Positions 958 through 19,599 of a stretch of DNA of 21,105 bases are shown piece after piece. Under the pieces are notes generated by a model. That model had not been told where the DNA came from, searched no databases, and worked only from the letters and a program-made list of their open reading frames with translations. A program made the position numbers and the translations under genes. The stretch is from Cochliopodium minus. Lineage: Eukaryota > Discosea > Himatismenida > Cochliopodiidae. Within the stretch, counting starts at the first letter, position 1; each line of letters opens with the position of its first letter. The stretch covers positions 569,086-590,190 of the forward strand of contig JAMYWO010000001.1 in assembly GCA_024220525.1 (NCBI GenBank). The letters run 5' to 3'.

Positions 958-3900
958 ATGGAAGATGAAAGAGGGAAATTAATGAAAGGTAATTCAAAAT
1001 TATAAACAAACAAGGATACATGTTATATTCTTTGATATATTTATTTTTGGAGAATAAAATAATATTATGAAAATTATTATCAATTTCTCATAATATACTC
1101 ACTCATATTGATTTTCATCCAATCTATTCAATAAAAATTATCAACAAATCAAAATTAAAAAGAATTTCAATTTATAAATTAATAATAATTAATAATTAAA
1201 TAAATTTTGATTCATTAAAATTCCCATTTTATTTTTAAATTTTTTAAAAGAATATGAAACAAAACTAAGAGTGGAATTGGACAACACTCAAGCATACTTG
1301 GTGAGATTGGACGGACACAAGTTTTCCACATTCACCAAAAACTGGAAGAAACCATACGACATGAGAAGTAAAAAAAAAAAATTGAAAAATTAAATAATAT
1401 TTGAATAAATAAATTTTAGTTTACGATGCAATGCACAAAACCACCGCTGATTTGGTGGAAAAATTTAATGCATCTTTTGGTTATACCCAATCAGATGAGA
1501 TAACGTAAAATTTAAATTTAAATTAAATTTATTTAAGTTTTTATTTTATTTTGTTTTTATTTGGTTTTTATTTTATTTTATTTTGTTTTGTTTTACAAAA
1601 ACTTTTTATTTTTATTTTTATTTTATTTTTTATTTTATTTTATTTTATTTATTTAAACATTTATTATTTTTCTTAAAGATTGTACTTCCCTGAGAGACCC
1701 AAGAAAGGAGTAACCCAAGAAGAGCTCGAAAACAAAAAGAATACTGAAGAATACAAGAAATTATTTGATCCCATCATGTTCCACGTAAAAAAAATAAAAA
1801 TATTTGAAATAAATAATTAAAAATTTGTTGAGGTTGAGTTAATAAAATGAATATAAATCAATAAAATTTAAATATTAAAATATTAAAATCTTTAAAATCT
1901 TATTTCATTTATCTCTCTGTTTTGGAAATAATTTATTTTTATTTTTCAAATCACCTAAAATAATTCCAAAGAATTTAGAGTAAAAATTTTTTCATAAAAA
2001 AATCAACAGTTTAACATTTTTTTTAAATTTAATCATAAAATAAAAAATAAAAAAAAAAATTAATACTAAATTTTAAAAAATAAATAATTAAAATTGAAAT
2101 TGAAAAAATAGGGAAGAACAGAGAAGATTAGTTCTTTGATGAGCAGCTACTGTTCGGTCAGGTTTGCTTATCATTTGAGTCAGATGACCTACTCGGAGAA
2201 CGAAGAGAACATCAAGAGCTTGATTTTTGATGTACATTTTGACGCCAGAGCTATCAACATACCCAATATTGAAGTATTAGTGGAAAACATCTTGTAAAAA
2301 AAAAATAAATAATCATTTTTTTTCTTAATATTATTTTTTATTTTTTAATTTAATTTTTTTTTTTCCTAAAATTTTTTTTTTTTTTATTTTTTAAAGATGG
2401 AGAATGGACGATTGTGAAGTAAAAAAAAAAATTGATAAAAGTTGATAATTAAAAAAATTATTTCAAAATTTCAGAGAAACAGCAAAAATAACCTAGGTAT
2501 AAAAAAAAAAACACATTTTTATTTATCATTTTTTTTATTTTTAATTTTATTTATATTTTACTTTTTTTAAAAAAATTTTTAGGAAGACAGTTTTTATCTC
2601 AAAAGGAAATGAACAATATGAGCGCAAATAAAGTTTCCAAATTAATTTTTGAGAAATTCGAAGAGAAATGGATGGATAGGTAAAATTTTTTATTTTTTAT
2701 TTTATTTTATATTTTTTATTTTTTATTTTTCATTTTTTTATTTTTTTATTTTTTTATTTTTGTTTATTTTTTTTTAAAAAAAGACATCCTTATTTCAAGT
2801 TTGGATGCTTCGTTAAAAAAGAACAAGTTCAAAAAGAAGGAACCAATGCCAAAACAGAAACTACTGTTCTAGTCAACCGTTCTGTCATTGTAAAATAAAA
2901 TAATAAAAAATCAAAAATAAAAATAATAATAAAATAATAAAATAATAAAATAATAAAATAATAAAATAATAAAATAATAAAATAATAATAAAATAATAAA
3001 ATTATAATAAAATTATAATAAAATAAAAAATAAAATAATTGTTAAATAATAGAAAAATTTGATGAAAAGAAAAAATAAAAAAATTTATTTAAAATTAGTC
3101 TTCTTCTTCCTTTAATCTTTCTACATTTGAAAAACAAGACATAATTGGATTTTTGAGGTCAAAATATGTCAATGAAAATCCTTCTTTCTACCCGCTCTTC
3201 AGATCTCTCCACACTGTCCCTCTTTTCGCTCAAAAGTTCCAGCAGAGTAAAAAAAAAAAATGAATGAAAAAAATAATCAAATAAATAATCAAATAAATCT
3301 TCAAATAAAAAAATAAAATAAAAAATTTATTTAGTTTTATTTACAAAAATAAATAAAAATAAAAATAAAATTGAGAAAAATAAAAAATAGAATAAAGTAA
3401 AAAAAAATTAAATTTAATAATTTATAAGTAAAAAATTTATTAAAAATAATAATTAATATTCAATAAAATTTTTAAATAAAATTTTTTAATAATTTAATAC
3501 AAAAAATATTTAAAATAAAAATTCTAATTTTTTAAAAAAAGATAAAAACAAAATTGAGGCGGTCATTTTTGATTTGGATGGAATCATTCTGGACACAGAG
3601 CCTCTTTACTATAAGGTGAACGACGTTTTGCTTAACAATTATGGCCACAAATACACCAATGAACTTCAACTCAAAATTCTTGGAAAAGTAATAAAACAAA
3701 TAATCCAAATCATCCAAATAATAAAAAATAAATTAATAAATTAGTAACTAATAATAAAAAAAAATCATAAAAAATAATAAAAAAATCAAAAAAAATAATA
3801 AAAAATCATAAAAAATTAAAATTAAAAACTAATAAAAAAACTAATAAAAAATAATAAAAAATAAAATACAATAATAAGAATTAAAATAAAAACAAAAATA

Positions 3901-5167
3901 AAAACTAATAAAAATTAATGAATATAAAAAATTGGAAAAACAAAAAAATGAAAAAAAATAAAAAAAAAAAAATCAATTAACAAACAAAACAAATAAAATA
4001 ATAAAAATAAAACAAAAAAAACAAAAAAACTCAGTTAAAATTAGATTAATAAAAAATAAAAAATAAAAAAACTAAAACAAAACAAATAAATTCGAAAATA
4101 AATAAAATAAAATAAAAAATAAAAACAAAAAACAAACAAAATATCGAAAATAAATAAAATAAAATAAAAAATTGTTTAGCCAGAGAAAGTAGGGTTGGAA
4201 ATATTGATTAAAGAGTTCGACCTCCCTTGCACAGTAGAAGAGTTAGAGAAACAGCACATGAACAAGCTTAATGAGCTCTTTCCTTCTGCACTCGCTTTGC
4301 CTGGTGCCTTCAGACTCATCAAACATTTGAAAGACAAAAACATCAAAATTGCCATTGCAACTTCTTCCAGTAATATTATTATTCCTTAAATTTATTGTTT
4401 ATAAAAATTTCTTTTCTTTTTAAAATTATTTAGTTTTAATTTTTATTAATTTGTTTATTTTTATTAAATTATTTAAAATATTTTTAACTAAAATTTTTTA
4501 AAATAAATCATATTTAATTTTTTTTTTAATTTTTTATATCTTTTTGTTCTTAGATTTTTTTTTAATTTCATAAAAATAATTAAATCAATATTTTTAATTT
4601 TTTATTTATTAATTTAATATTTATTATTTTTAAAAAGTTTTTTATTTTTAAAATTCACATATCAATTTATCTTTTGACAGAAATAGAATCATTTGAACTA
4701 AAATCAAAGAACCACGAAAGAATGTTTTCTTTTTTTAACAAAAATGTGATTTGTGGAGACAACCCATCCATCAAACAAGGCAAACCTTTTCCTGATATCT
4801 ACTTGGCCTCTGCCAAAAATTTGGGAGTTGATCCTAAACACTGTTTGGTCTTTGAAGACTCTCCTGCAGGTGTTCAAGCAGGTAATTTAATTAATTAATT
4901 TTTTTAAAATTTATCTTTTAATAATTTTTTTATCTTTTAATAATTTTTTTTCAATTTTTTTTTCTTTTTTTTAATTCTTTTTTTTAATATTTTTCTTTTC
5001 CTATAGGAAAGTCTGCTGGTATGTTCGTCGTAGGAATTCCTTACCCTCATGTTTATGACTCTCAAAGGGAGCATTATGACAAGAACACTGATCTTATATT
5101 GAACTCAATGTCAGAGTTTCTCCCTGAAACTTTTGGATTACCTTCTTATCTAAACACCAAAAATTAA
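958..5167 (+). CDS. Thg1-like 3'-5' polymerase fused to a HAD phosphatase (537 aa, 14 exons)
   Basis: Exons: 958-988, 1251-1367, 1420-1504, 1679-1784, 2112-2293, 2397-2418, 2475-2496, 2583-2679, 2784-2889, 3099-3246, 3542-3687, 4180-4369, 4681-4881, 5007-5167. All phases agree and the total is 1614 nt. Residues 1-305 are a tRNA-His guanylyltransferase-like (Thg1/TLP) enzyme, a family that adds nucleotides to tRNA 5' ends. The metal-binding motif RLDGHKFSTF has D31, KKPYD has K44, GYTQSDE has D75/E76, and WRMDDCERNS ends at residues 182-184. Residues 306-537 are a HAD phosphatase. No ATG is available to start the HAD part separately: the only ATGs upstream (3260, 3264) reach stops without a donor. 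Retaining the intron at 2890 would stop Thg1 after 258 residues; retaining the one at 3247 adds SKKKK then a stop. Both domains are certain; the fusion rests on phase and the missing start. Confidence 0.65.
2926..3025. repeat. Tandem AAAATAAT-type low-complexity repeat
   Basis: About a dozen near-perfect copies of an 8-nt A/T unit, becoming imperfect toward the right end. It lies wholly inside the proposed intron 2890-3098 of the Thg1-HAD gene. It contains no coding signal on either strand. It probably varies in length between strains, like other microsatellites. Confidence 0.85.
3542..5167 (+). CDS. HAD phosphatase half of the fusion, pseudouridine-5'-phosphatase (HDHD1/PUDP) type
   Basis: These four exons encode a complete HAD domain. 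Motif I is IFDLDGIILDTE (nucleophile D316 and D318 of the fusion). A cap region follows, with PEKVGLEI and LPGAFRLIKHL. Motif II is ATSS (414-417). The motif III lysine is in QGKPFPD (K452), and motif IV is FEDSPAG (E476, D477). Order, spacing and the four-helix cap inserted after motif I match the HDHD1/GPP-like subfamily, known for dephosphorylating pseudouridine 5'-phosphate or sugar phosphates. The exact substrate cannot be read from sequence. The first exon starts in phase 2, so it needs an upstream exon; the only fitting one ends at 3246 in the Thg1 frame. If it is a separate gene, its first exon is missing from the window. Confidence 0.85.
3688..4179 (+). other. Long A-rich intron of the Thg1-HAD gene
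   Basis: This 492-nt intron is almost purely A and T, with a marked excess of A on the coding strand and degenerate AATAAA/AAATAA repeats. It ends TTGTTTAG and has only a very short pyrimidine tract. Most other introns here are T-rich near the acceptor, so this one and its neighbour (3247-3541) stand out. I see no gene inside it. Confidence 0.7.
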
Positions 5168-5694: not shown

Positions 5695-5940
5695 TTAGAA
5701 TTGTTCAACAGGTGAGGATCTATTTTCTAATTCTTGTTTGATCAATTTAAAGACATTTAATCTGTGTCCAACAACAATGATGCCCAAATCTTTGAGATTC
5801 TTCAATCCAAGCTCCAAGAATGATTTTCCATTCACATGATTTCCTCTAAATGAATCAATTACTTGATCAGCAAATGAGAGTTGATTGTTCAAGAAAGAGC
5901 AGAGTTCTTCAGTGGTAAAGTTTTCGTTATATTTGTTCAT
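5695..5940 (-). CDS. Small stand-alone SAM-domain protein (81 aa)
   Basis: One uninterrupted exon starts at the ATG at 5940-5938 and ends in TAA. Residues 9-71 read as a single sterile alpha motif: an N-terminal helix (TEELCSFLNNQLSFADQVI), the linker with NGKSFLELG, then LKDLGIIVVGHRLNVFKLI, which is the diagnostic LGI...GHR helix of SAM domains. SAM domains mediate homo- or hetero-oligomerisation and sometimes RNA or lipid binding. Nothing else is encoded, so the protein is probably an adaptor or a regulator of SAM polymers. No acceptor lies close upstream of the ATG, which supports it as the true start. The sequence upstream holds a long T-rich tract. The domain call is firm; the role is open. 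Confidence 0.8.
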   Translation of the reverse strand: MNKYNENFTTEELCSFLNNQLSFADQVIDSFRGNHVNGKSFLELGLKNLKDLGIIVVGHRLNVFKLIKQELENRSSPVEQF

Positions 5941-6264
5941 TTTTGAAAAATTGATTTGTGGAAAAAAGTTTTTTGATTTTTTGGAAAAAAAAGAGAAGAA
6001 AAGACTCTGAATATTTCTTTTTGAGTTTTTTTTTATTAATTTTTTTTTTTTATTTTTTATTTTTTATTTTTTTTCGTTGGGTGTGAAACAAAATATTTCA
6101 AATATTTTTTTATCATCTTTTTACATTCTCAGAATATGCATCCGTATACTTACGCAAAAAATAAAAAATAAAAAAAAAAATTCTAATTTTACTAAAACAA
6201 GAAGGAAATTTCATTAAACAAAATGTTTGACAAATAAAAAAGAAAACGAAACCAATCTTTTATT
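5941..6264. other. Intergenic region upstream of the SAM gene, no gene seen
   Basis: A/T-rich sequence with T and A runs at 6015-6080 and 6160-6180. One stretch near 6125-6150 is less biased and contains GTAAG-like and TAAG strings on the minus strand, but no convincing exon follows. It probably includes the promoter and 5' leader of the SAM gene. Confidence 0.5.
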
Positions 6265-9869: not shown

Positions 9870-12511
9870 TTATTTTTGTAACATTTTTTTGAGTTGATCA
9901 TAAAATAAGGAAATGGAATACTGATCCTTCCCAGAAGTAATCTCACAAGAACCATCACTAGGAATGAAATTCTTGATGATCCTCAAAAGCTGAAGAACAG
10001 AAAAGTTCCTGGGCATGTATTTCCAAAGCTCACCAATCTTCTTGGGTTCCTCAAACTTAAAACAATAACCAACAGCCAAATGAAAGAGTTCATAATGTTC
10101 AGTGTCTTGGTTCATTCTCTTCTCCAAAATTTGAATGGCTTTGTTCCAATTATCAAAGTTGTAAAGCATAAGTTTCAAAGCATCACGCGCTCTATTGACT
10201 TTGCACATTATTTGGATGTAGGTGTCAAGTTGTTCATCGTTGGGCTTGAATCTGCTGAAGGGACTGTCTCCGATGTTGTAGGTGTTGATGTTTTGGTAGT
10301 CGTCATGATGCAAGAGGGGAGGCAAGTTGCTGAGACATCTTTCGAAAATGAAGAATTTGCTGCTTTTTTCTTCGAGGAGGGAGGAGGCGGATATTTCAGA
10401 GGAGATTTTTTCTTGGGAAGCCATATCGTTGAAAAAATTTTGCAAGTAGTCCAAAAAGACATATAATTTGTTTGGTTTGTAGATATAGAAGAGAAAAGAG
10501 AGGATGTCAAAGTAAGGAACAAAAGAGCTTGTGCTTTGTCTGTCATCGTACTTGAACTGGGTGAATAAAAGCTTTACCAAGTTGGAAGAGTTCTCCTTCG
10601 AAATGGTTCCATTTAGAACAGAATTTAGATCTAGTTGTTGAAAGAAATCATTAAATAAATTTGAGGGATTGGTGAGGTAAAGATACTCCAGTTTATCTCG
10701 AGAGATCTCTGTGACAGACTTTTTTTTTATTTCTATTTCTTTTTTAACATGGAGGTTTTCGAATTCATTGATGACAGAAAGATAATTCTTCAAGATGGGA
10801 TACAAAGATTCATTCAAAGAGGTGAACAAGTGAAAAGAGTTCTGCGCGGACAATTTCTGGTTTGATTTTTCATTGGAAAGAGGAGGATCAAATTTGAGAA
10901 GAAATTCTTCGATTTGTTTCTTGAATCTTTTTTGATAAAAACTATCTTCAGAAAGAATGGCAATAGTCAAAGAAGGGTTCGACAACAAAGGAAGCAATTC
11001 TTCACATATTTCAAGTTTACGTTGAAAATCAACATCGTTTTTATCATTGGTGGCTTCTTCCAAAAGATACTTTGCCTCCAACTTTTTGAGTCCCCACTGA
11101 GAACAAATTTTAGAAGAAAGTTGGCAAGATTTTTGTCGAGAAGCAAGCGAAACGATAGTAGGATGGATTATCTGCCAAATACCATCGTAATTGTCAATGA
11201 ATCCGAATTGGGGGAGCAAAGAGTTTTCTTTAGAAGAAGTATCAGAGAAATGTGAGCATTTCCAAAAGTTTTTGAAGTTCTTTTTGCTGTTGTTTATCAT
11301 CTTTTGATCGATCATGAATCCTGTGTTGATGTCGTAGAATTGTATGGAGTTGTTGGACTGAGACACTGCCAAAGTGTGGTAAATGAGGGTGAAATCTCTG
11401 ACTTTGTTTTGAGGAGAAAAGTCTTGAAGTCTGCAAACAGAAATCGCCAAAATTTGGTTTTTGTGGAAGGAGCAAATGGTAACTAACCCTGTAGACTCTA
11501 GCAAAACTAGCTCTTTGGTGGATTGGTTAAAGTAATAATGAAGAACATCTTCCATTTGAGATCTTTGTTTTTTGAGAGGAATTTCTTCTTCGTTTATTTT
11601 TTTCTGCTCGGTTTCTTTTCCGATGGGTGTTTTGATGTTTAATGTGTGGATTTTGCTTATAAACTCGTAAAAGATGATTTCTTTTTCGCAAACAATCCAA
11701 ACACCTTTGTTTCCAGGGAAGAAAGCAACAGGATCCTTGAAACTGGTTGTCAACACTTGGTTTATCCCCATCTCTAGCCCATTTTCGCTTGGTTTCAATG
11801 TCTTTTTGAGAAGTCTATAGTTGTTGTTATTATTATTGGAATTTTCAATCACATCTATCGAAACGAAAAAAGGGCTTGTTTCATCACACAATACGAGGTT
11901 TTGGGTTTTGGATTTGTTTATGAAAGAGATGTTGTTTTTACTGATGAATTTCCATTTGTCCTCTTTCCATATCCAACTGTATATTTCTCCATCTTCTGTC
12001 CCCACAAAGAGAAAGAGTTGTATTATTCCCTTTTCGTCTTTTAGCTTCTCTAGAAGCAGACTTGTTATTTTCTTTTCGAAGGCATCCATCATTATGGTAT
12101 GCTCTTTGTTTCCTATGTTAATTTGAACTCCTTTATGTCCATAATTATCAAATTTCTGATTTTCTTTCAATAATGACAATATTCTTTTAAGATTTTCACT
12201 TCCTATATTCTCACTATTTTTTATTTTTGAGGTTGTATATTCATATTTATCGTTATAAATGATATATATTTCAATATATTCTATTGGGATGTTCATTTTA
12301 ATTGATAGATTTACCATTTTAATGAATCAAAAATGATAAATTTCATTCTATCCTCCAATATAACTGCAAAATGTCCCGAGATATTGATGATGGAAGAGAC
12401 TTTGATATTTTCAGAAAAGGAAGTGGATAAAGAACCAATGATAGAAGATCCTCTCATAAAGAACCATGTTTTATCATTAACAGGACGATAATAAAAAAGT
12501 TCCTTTTGCAT
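9870..12511 (-). CDS. HPS6: HPS6-like BLOC-2 subunit (846 aa, 2 exons)
   Basis: Exon 1 is 12511-12315 and exon 2 is 12213-9870, with a 101-nt intron. Exon 2 also lies inside a longer frame opening at 12317, but the sequence 12314-12214 is very AT-rich and the splice TG|T joins the conserved start in phase. The N-terminal half looks like a degenerate beta-propeller (SGHFAVIL, VGTEDGEIYSW, NKGVWIVCEKEIIFYE, SNNSIQFYDINTGFMIDQK). The rest is helical. Compared from memory with human HPS6 (775 aa), the C-terminus aligns in order: YELFHLAVGY, LWKYMP, LLRIIKNFIPSDG, YDQLKKMLQ against EIFKLLLAEF, LCRLCP, LLLLRTYLPDE, LKALLEQ. In animals BLOC-2 (HPS3, HPS5, HPS6) tethers endosomal carriers bound for lysosome-related organelles. 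An asparagine run sits near 160. The match is remote, so another propeller-solenoid trafficking protein is possible. Confidence 0.55.
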
Positions 12512-18009: not shown

Positions 18010-19599
18010 ATGGAAACTGTAAATATCGAGAAAATTAAACCAAAAGAATCAAAAATGAAAGTTGTTGTTACAGGAGCAACTGGATTACTTGGAAGAGCAA
18101 TAATGAAGGTATAAAAATTATAATTTTTTTTTTTCCAATAAAATTCAACTTCTTTAAAAGGAATTCTCCCAATGTGATGTAGTGGGGATAGGATGGAATA
18201 GAGGAGGGAAAAACATAAAGAAATTGGATTTAAGAGATTTCAAAGAAGTGGAAGAATTTCTGATTGAAGAATTTCCAGGTATGTTTAATAAAGAATAAGA
18301 ACCAATATACAAACTCATTTTACATCTATTTGTTTCCATTTGATCAGGAAGTTTTCATATTATTATCTTTTTGGAACATTAAATTATATATCAGCGAAAT
18401 ATTATACCAAATAAAAAATAGAGAAAGAAATTTCTTTTGTGAGTATAATAAAAATAAAATACAACGAGTTCATAGTTTAAATATAATTGATCTTCTCATA
18501 TTTTAAATTTTAAAAAATAAAAGATGTGATTATACATTGTGCAGCAGAAAAAAATGTGGATATATGTGAGAAAAATGTGGAAGAAACACATAAATTCAAT
18601 GCAGACTTAACCGAATTCCTCTCAAAGTATTGGTAATCAAAAAAAATTTTTGTTTCAAAAATTTATAATTTTTTTTCAAATTTCATTTTATTTATCATTT
18701 ATAAACTTTATTTAATTTTATTTAACTTTATTTAATTATTTTATTCAATGATTTAATCTCTTTTATTAATAGCAAGGAATATGGAGCATGGCTTCTCTAC
18801 ATCTCCACAGATTATGTTTTCGATGGAAAAGCACCTGCTTACAAACCCAACAGCAAAACGAATCCTCTCAACTCCTATGGGAGATCAAAGTTAGATGGAG
18901 AGATCAGAGCTCGTGCTGCTGATTGGGGTGCTGGTGTTTTACGTGTTCCTTTGTTGTATGGTTCTGTAAAAAAAAAAAAATTAATTTTATTCATAAATAT
19001 CATTATTATTTTTAATATTTATTTTATTTTAATCATTTTTATTTTCATTAATTTTATTTTTTTTTTTGTATTTTTTTATTTTTCTTAAATTCAACAGTTA
19101 GAAAAATTGAATGAATCATCATGCACATCTATATTTCAACAAGTTCTCAATCAAACACCCCAAGAAATAGACAATTATAACATCCGCTATCCTACTTTCG
19201 TGGACGATGTTGCAAGAGTTTGTAGACTTTTGTCTGAAAGAAAAATGAAGCATTGTGGTTTCAATGGTATTTTTCATTTCTCTGGAAATCAATCTTTTAC
19301 AAAATATCAAATTGCACTTAAATATGGTAAAAAATTTTTTGTTTTTTAAAATATTTTTTCCATTTTACTTTTTATTTTTATTTTTTAATTTTTCTATTTT
19401 TTCTATTATTTTCATAGGAGAATTGTTTGGACTTTCAACATCCCATTTAAAACCTATCGACCATGCTACTAGTTCAGATTCAACTAGACCTCACAATGCA
19501 AAATTGGACACTAGTGTTTTGCAGTTGATGGGACTTCTAAAAGTTACCCCGTTTGAAAAGGCTATCAAACCTATTTTGGAACCTTTTCTACCAAAATAA
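18010..19599 (+). CDS. MAT2B: MAT2B-like methionine adenosyltransferase regulatory subunit (309 aa, 6 exons)
   Basis: Exons: 18010-18108, 18161-18278, 18524-18632, 18773-18965, 19098-19326, 19418-19599 (930 nt). It is an extended short-chain dehydrogenase/reductase of the RmlD/dTDP-4-dehydrorhamnose reductase family: NAD(P)-binding VVTGATGLLG (G22, G25, G28), HCAAE, YISTDYVFDG (118-127), and Y144-x3-K148 in NSYGRSKLDGE. The order and wording follow human MAT2B closely: VLRVPLLYG, RYPTFVDDVARVCR, GIFHFSGNQSFTKY, SSDSTRPHNAKLD. In animals this protein binds the MAT2A catalytic subunit and tunes S-adenosylmethionine synthesis. Family members in microbes can instead make dTDP-rhamnose, so the role is not certain. 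The ATG at 18010 is used; a second in-frame ATG precedes KVVVTG and would give 294 residues. Human MAT2B is slightly longer (334). Confidence 0.85.

Follow-up and report, generated by a model that had tools for sequence, protein, structure and literature searches.

Introduction

Most Thg1 proteins are stand-alone, and section 6 of PMC2904730 names a single domain architecture, the duplication found in seed plants; the bacterial Thg1 neighborhoods described in that section contain genes for polynucleotide kinase, MACRO, and RNA ligase proteins. According to PMC3701042, the Thg1-like protein (TLP) of Bacillus thuringiensis (BtTLP) and human Thg1 both assemble as dimers of dimers, and nucleotide transfer to a 5'-monophosphate end is preceded by adenylylation of that end. 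In Dictyostelium (PMC6471195, section 3.4), the TLPs act on mitochondrial tRNAs, either by adding G-1 to one of them or by repairing 5'-truncated ones, or carry out an essential task that is unknown. The present analysis concerns a gene on the plus strand, at positions 958-5167, of a 21,105-nucleotide stretch of DNA from Cochliopodium minus, an AT-rich protist whose intron-rich genes are those of a eukaryote. This whole stretch, referred to as the window, corresponds to C1:569086-590190 in the assembly that was searched (44.65 Mb, 598 contigs). The gene very probably encodes one fused protein, in which a linker of some 50 residues connects a TLP to a haloacid dehalogenase (HAD) phosphatase resembling human pseudouridine-5'-phosphatase (PUDP).

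Results

A single reading frame spans both domains

The window gene was modeled as 14 exons that join into one 537-residue frame with 0 internal stops. All 13 introns are of the GT...AG type and their phases are consistent, in agreement with the original prediction, which had described the two domains as connected by phase-matched introns and whose exons at 2784-2889, 3099-3246, and 3542-3687 recur with identical coordinates in the rebuilt model. The TLP half begins with the start ATG at 958 in exon 1 (958-988, delimited by the frame and a GT donor). It continues through exon 2 (1251-1367), which holds the metal-binding motif RLDG with D31, exon 3 (1420-1504), which holds QSDE with D75 and E76, exon 4 (1679-1784), and exon 5 (2112-2293), whose HFDAR is probably the DxR signature of section 6 of PMC2904730. 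Exons 6 (2397-2418), 7 (2475-2496), and 8 (2583-2679) follow, and exon 9 (2784-2889) is the last TLP exon. Intron 9 (2890-3098, phase 0) marks the domain border. Beyond it, exon 10 (3099-3246) encodes a 49-residue linker without an in-frame Met, and the HAD half occupies exon 11 (3542-3687; nucleophile motif DLDG with D316 and D318), exon 12 (4180-4369; ATSS), exon 13 (4681-4881; GKPFPD and VFEDSPAG), and exon 14 (5007-5167), in which a C-terminal FGLPSY, as in human PUDP, precedes the stop. The longest intron (3688-4179, 492 bases) is 72% A and 19% T, and other introns of the gene are T-rich, with up to 74% T.

The N-terminal half is a bacterial-type TLP, a predicted 3'-5' RNA polymerase. Pfam Thg1 matches residues 7-164 with an E value of 1.5e-29 (102.9 bits against a cut-off of 29.2), and the best PDB match of the first 256 residues is BtTLP (4kgk, 2.3e-15). 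Residues D31, D75, and E76 align with D30, D75, and E76 of BtTLP, the numbering of the latter being that of PMC3701042. Thg1C is not among the Pfam families found for the window protein.

The C-terminal half resembles a nucleotide phosphatase. Pfam HAD_2 covers residues 313-494 (E 9.6e-27, over its cut-off), and the best PDB match of the last 281 residues is human HDHD1A/PUDP (3l5k, 1.8e-52; 9m7l, 2.8e-51), with the next enzyme, 3kbb, following at 1.4e-32. In an alignment with PUDP, TM_1254, and two beta-phosphoglucomutases, the motif columns are conserved: DLDG at D316/D318, ATSS from residue 414, GKPFPD from 451, and VFEDSPAG from 474, which are taken here to be HAD motifs I to IV. Along with the three TLP carboxylates, these motifs bear out the earlier statement that both domains carry their catalytic motifs. 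The inorganic diphosphatase model NF053653 also matches the HAD half (4.8e-22), but its 78.6 bits fall far short of the 245-bit cut-off. PUDP belongs to the capped, small-molecule branch of HADs, and its substrate is 5'-pseudouridine monophosphate, a product of RNA breakdown; PNK-type HADs work on polynucleotide ends. Because the HAD half is nearest to PUDP and the PNK-type HAD is absent among the seven Pfam families listed for the window protein, a free nucleotide is a likelier substrate than RNA ends. In the original prediction, the phosphatase had been given a speculative role, the removal of inhibitory or modified nucleotides or the processing of an activated 5' end. A query with the linker and HAD recovered the window gene in 5 of 5 matches and no other PUDP-like gene in the genome, in searches that were run exon by exon with scoring of the best candidates and that may miss split genes. 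Two further HAD_2 loci, on contigs C414 and C139, appear by eye to belong to other HAD families.

Sequence at the domain border

The G+C content of intron 9 is 3.8%, within the range of the other 12 introns (3.8-14.5%), and the flanks of the gene have 23.8% and 21.0%. Should intron 9 be retained, the TLP would end with V-K-stop at 2898; the remaining stretch, 2899-3098, has 3.5% G+C, compared with 9.0% or more in every 200-base segment of the window beyond the gene, 12.2% in a 197-base gap that separates two genes on contig C55, and 13.4% in a 172-base stretch behind a Thg1 gene on contig C507. Base composition supports the assignment of intron 9 as an intron, without being decisive. Exon 10 is stop-free only in the joining frame among all six frames, and of its codon log-odds in the three plus-strand frames, 2.7 belongs to the joining frame and -8.5 and -15.5 to the remaining two. 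Its codon score in the joining frame was matched by 0 of 5000 shuffles, of which 407 were stop-free.

A second locus repeats the arrangement

At C58:85285-87354, on an independent contig, seven exons encode a 526-residue protein with a Pfam Thg1 match of 6.9e-27. Its TLP is 41% identical to that of the window and retains RLDG, QSDE, and FDAR, and its C-terminal 264 residues are collinear, nearly end to end, with the window linker and HAD. Aligned to the window HAD, this tail reaches a local score of 78 (z 7.1-7.8) and a semi-global z of 8.6, which 0 of 1000 shuffles attain; 33 decoy frames taken from this genome score 46 at most, and, as a yardstick, a fragment of the HAD at C139 scores 79. 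In comparisons with other HADs, z is 2.4 for human PUDP, 0.4 for TM_1254, and 4.3 and 1.9 for the two beta-phosphoglucomutases; the shuffles that do as well number 26, 322, 4, and 62 of 1000, respectively. A genome search with the C58 tail that admitted E values up to 1 returned no locus other than its own.

The tail carries SLEG from residue 322 in place of DLDG; the HAD nucleophile motif is lost and, judging by this substitution, the phosphatase is apparently dead. Of the three plus-strand frames, the fused one is the only frame in which the linker and tail have coding scores, with a codon-score training set that includes the window gene. In shuffles, exon 6 was open in 49 of 20000 cases and exon 7 (the last exon, 573 bases) in 0 of 20000. 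The frame meets a Y-stop right past the border donor, at the place where the window has V-K-stop.

The TLPs of the window and C58 group as sisters (support 100/97) in an 84-row tree, so the fusion probably preceded the duplication. Since the C58 locus repeats the order of parts, the proposed fusion of a Thg1-like polymerase to a HAD phosphatase, supported by the single frame, is better supported than from the window alone, and misassembly or a chance neighborhood is held to be unlikely.

Observations that weigh against the fusion

Several observations count against a fused, duplicated gene. The first concerns the start of a stand-alone HAD, for which ATGs from 2001 on were searched with at most two introns and GTA or GTG donors, giving 244 combinations. 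The original prediction had seen no usable start codon for the HAD between 3247 and 3541, and this is nearly, not absolutely, right: from the ATGs inside that interval, at 3260 and 3264, no path into the HAD frame was found with at most two introns, but just upstream a path does exist, running from ATG 3166 or 3172 in another frame (3166-3246, plus strand) through a donor at 3247 to an acceptor AG at 3557-3558. It is the only kind from 2784 on, and its two-intron variants share the same acceptor. The remaining combinations start at ATGs 2139-2672, within the TLP region and partly outside the TLP frame. Over 3166-3246, the log-odds of the alternative frame is -5.68 versus -3.68 for the joining frame, and the alternative acceptor ends in TGAG, whereas AAAG, TAG, and CAG are the endings seen among the 13 acceptors of the model. 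In addition, intron 9 contains an AATAAA-type sequence and an in-frame stop just past the donor, so that a TLP-only transcript is possible; the two genes on C55 are separated by only 197 bases; and the fusion is a prediction from DNA sequence.

The remaining points concern C58. Its tail is not recognized as a HAD by Pfam or by a PDB sequence search, and with a five-sequence HAD profile it scores 2.5 bits, which several of 500 shuffles exceed. Such misses by HAD profiles are consistent with a lost catalytic motif. BLASTP of the C58 tail against the window tail gives an E value of 0.023, and hhalign of the C58 tail against the five-sequence HAD alignment gives an E value of 0.0013 with a probability of 18. 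The two linkers alone are weakly alike, with 20 of 1000 (local), 95 of 1000 (semi-global), and 90 of 3000 shuffles scoring as well. Finally, the tree flags C58, C55, and C507 as long rows whose placement is unsure.

Other Thg1-family loci and neighboring genes

The genome searches located four Thg1-superfamily loci, on C507, C55, C58, and in the window. The Thg1C domain and the HINNLYN stretch are marks of eukaryotic Thg1, and both are present in the product of the C507 locus, a canonical Thg1 that matches Thg1C at 6.5e-41. When the tree is drawn from its midpoint, the TLPs of the window, C58, and C55 lie beside 80 prokaryotic rows, and C507 stands apart on a very long branch. The third TLP (C55:57800-63000) is unfused, with a charged N-terminal extension, and has diverged from the other two (branch length 2.13); its grouping with the prokaryotic-side TLPs has a support of 97/44. 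A third fusion was considered at this locus and rejected, as the TLP closes at its own stop and, by eye, the next gene has its own in-frame ATG.

For the COX1, cytochrome c1, and pyruvate:ferredoxin oxidoreductase families, the exon-by-exon search, which may miss split genes, gave no match in the assembly. If the organism is without a mitochondrial genome, its three TLPs cannot perform mitochondrial tRNA editing. One Fe-hydrogenase-like gene is observed at C1:398263-399345, and it could also encode the cytosolic Nar1-type protein.

Within the window, a small SAM-domain frame (5695-6063, minus strand; 1.8e-9) lies just downstream of the fusion gene. An intronless 818-residue frame at 9870-12326 on the minus strand, near the fusion gene with its 13 introns, has a weak match to the HPS6 C-terminal domain (2.5e-6), and an exon-like frame at 18726-19088 on the plus strand matches the RmlD substrate-binding domain (1.7e-19).

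Discussion

Probable origin and proposed roles of the fused protein

The following explanation, comprising the two-domain protein, its joining, its duplication, and the roles of its halves, is given a probability of roughly 60%. The stretch separating two neighboring genes would have turned into an intron where the TLP domain ends, so that the genes were joined, and a duplication of the product would have come next. The C58 copy would then have lost the nucleophile motif of the phosphatase, keeping its reading frame and the TLP carboxylates. The TLP half may form a tetramer like the Bacillus enzyme and repair the 5' ends of tRNA or other RNA; repair of RNA 5' ends is expected because of the chemistry of BtTLP and Thg1 and the roles of the Dictyostelium TLPs. 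For the HAD half, action on a small nucleotide is suggested tentatively: it may hydrolyze a nucleotide monophosphate, either 5'-pseudouridine monophosphate or a comparable RNA turnover product. It is a reasonable idea that RNA repair may be coupled to the removal of such products. Each tetramer would carry four phosphatase domains, and mixing of the window and C58 proteins would leave some of these inactive; in such mixed tetramers the non-catalytic phosphatase could serve as a structural or regulatory part. The more elaborate proposal, left out of the estimate above, of a two-subunit RNA repair machine in which live and dead phosphatase paralogues form mixed tetramers and couple 5'-end repair to clearing or sensing a modified nucleotide, such as pseudouridine monophosphate, is speculative and judged quite unlikely.

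Alternative explanations

The alternative that survives best, although it is rather doubtful, is that the HAD is a passenger joined by read-through, with a metabolic job of its own in the window copy and in decay in C58. The C58 protein has lost the nucleophile motif but kept the TLP carboxylates, as a passenger would allow, and the window HAD, as no other PUDP-like gene was found, may just be the PUDP of the cell. However, the C58 linker and tail have kept an open frame for about 260 codons, more in line with selection on the tail than with free decay.

A somewhat less probable alternative accepts one fused gene but supposes that alternative splicing or early polyadenylation in intron 9 yields both TLP-only and TLP-HAD proteins. 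Consistent with this, an in-frame stop follows the donor at both the window and C58, and intron 9 contains many AATAAA runs; nonetheless, stops soon after a donor are to be expected in introns this rich in A and T, and two products are considered unlikely.

An alternative in which the HAD acts directly on the 5' end of the RNA, or else on pyrophosphate or AMP that the polymerase releases, is improbable. A capped active site is one for small molecules, and PUDP is the closest relative by a wide margin, even though the diphosphatase model NF053653 appears, below its cut-off, among the HAD matches. In favor of such action, the TLP reaction passes through an adenylylated 5' end, as described in PMC3701042.

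The weakest alternative, two separate genes with the TLP ending at V-K-stop and a HAD starting at ATG 3166 or 3172 and spliced from 3246 to 3559, can draw on the path found by the ATG/GT/AG search, on a TLP domain that is complete by exon 9, and on the narrow gap at C55, but it is very improbable, as it needs the lower-scoring frame of exon 10 and the TGAG acceptor, would place between the genes a segment poorer in G+C than the C55 gap or any 200-base stretch of the window elsewhere, and has to account both for C58, where the arrangement recurs with a linker that is coding in the fused frame only of the three plus-strand frames, and for the downstream gene at C55, which by eye has an in-frame ATG of its own.

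Distribution of the fusion

Among prokaryotic contigs, 455 stretches encode TLP relatives, and the best 80 of these 455 were analyzed. With the window HAD as a positive control, a HAD-like frame of at least 80 residues was found near the TLP in 0 of the 80 loci, in fetched flanks of up to 4 kb. In the six longest stop-to-stop prokaryotic TLP frames, inspected by eye, the extra length lies upstream of the TLP. Phage records gave 189 matches, and among the matches listed (n = 12) none covers 80% of the fusion protein; in viral contigs, no relative was confirmed. A literature search found no paper that joins Thg1 with a haloacid dehalogenase or phosphatase domain, and the words fusion, fused, and phosphatase do not occur in the text of PMC6471195. 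The claim that a fusion of this kind had not been described thus agrees with the literature searched and with section 6 of PMC2904730; UniProt, InterPro, and other protein domain databases lay outside this search. By sequence, both halves belong to known families. Within the searches made, their combination appears new, as does the pairing of a live with a dead phosphatase, and a deposited but undescribed protein may exist. The tether to a nucleotide phosphatase offers a testable clue to the function of eukaryotic TLPs, and a paralogue that keeps the tether but has a dead phosphatase would separate a catalytic from a structural role of the added domain.

Comparison with known systems

BtTLP (4kgk; PMC3701042) shares with the window TLP the three carboxylates, a conserved lysine, the DxR region, a length of about 250 residues, and the lack of HINNLYN. 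However, BtTLP is a stand-alone protein of 245 residues, whereas the window TLP continues into the linker and HAD. Human PUDP/HDHD1A (3l5k, 9m7l) is likewise close to the window HAD, with 45% identity over the domain in the five-row alignment, the HAD motifs, and FGLPSY; it differs in being a stand-alone protein that starts shortly before the nucleophile motif, whereas the window HAD forms the C-terminal half of a polymerase. In Dictyostelium, one canonical Thg1 is accompanied by three TLPs (TLP2, TLP3, and TLP4; PMC6471195, section 3.4), the same count as in the genome analyzed here; that section mentions no phosphatase part in these TLPs, whereas the window TLP has one. The Thg1 of seed plants (PMC2904730, section 6) has likewise gained a catalytic domain, in that case a second Thg1, whereas in the window protein it would be an unrelated phosphatase.

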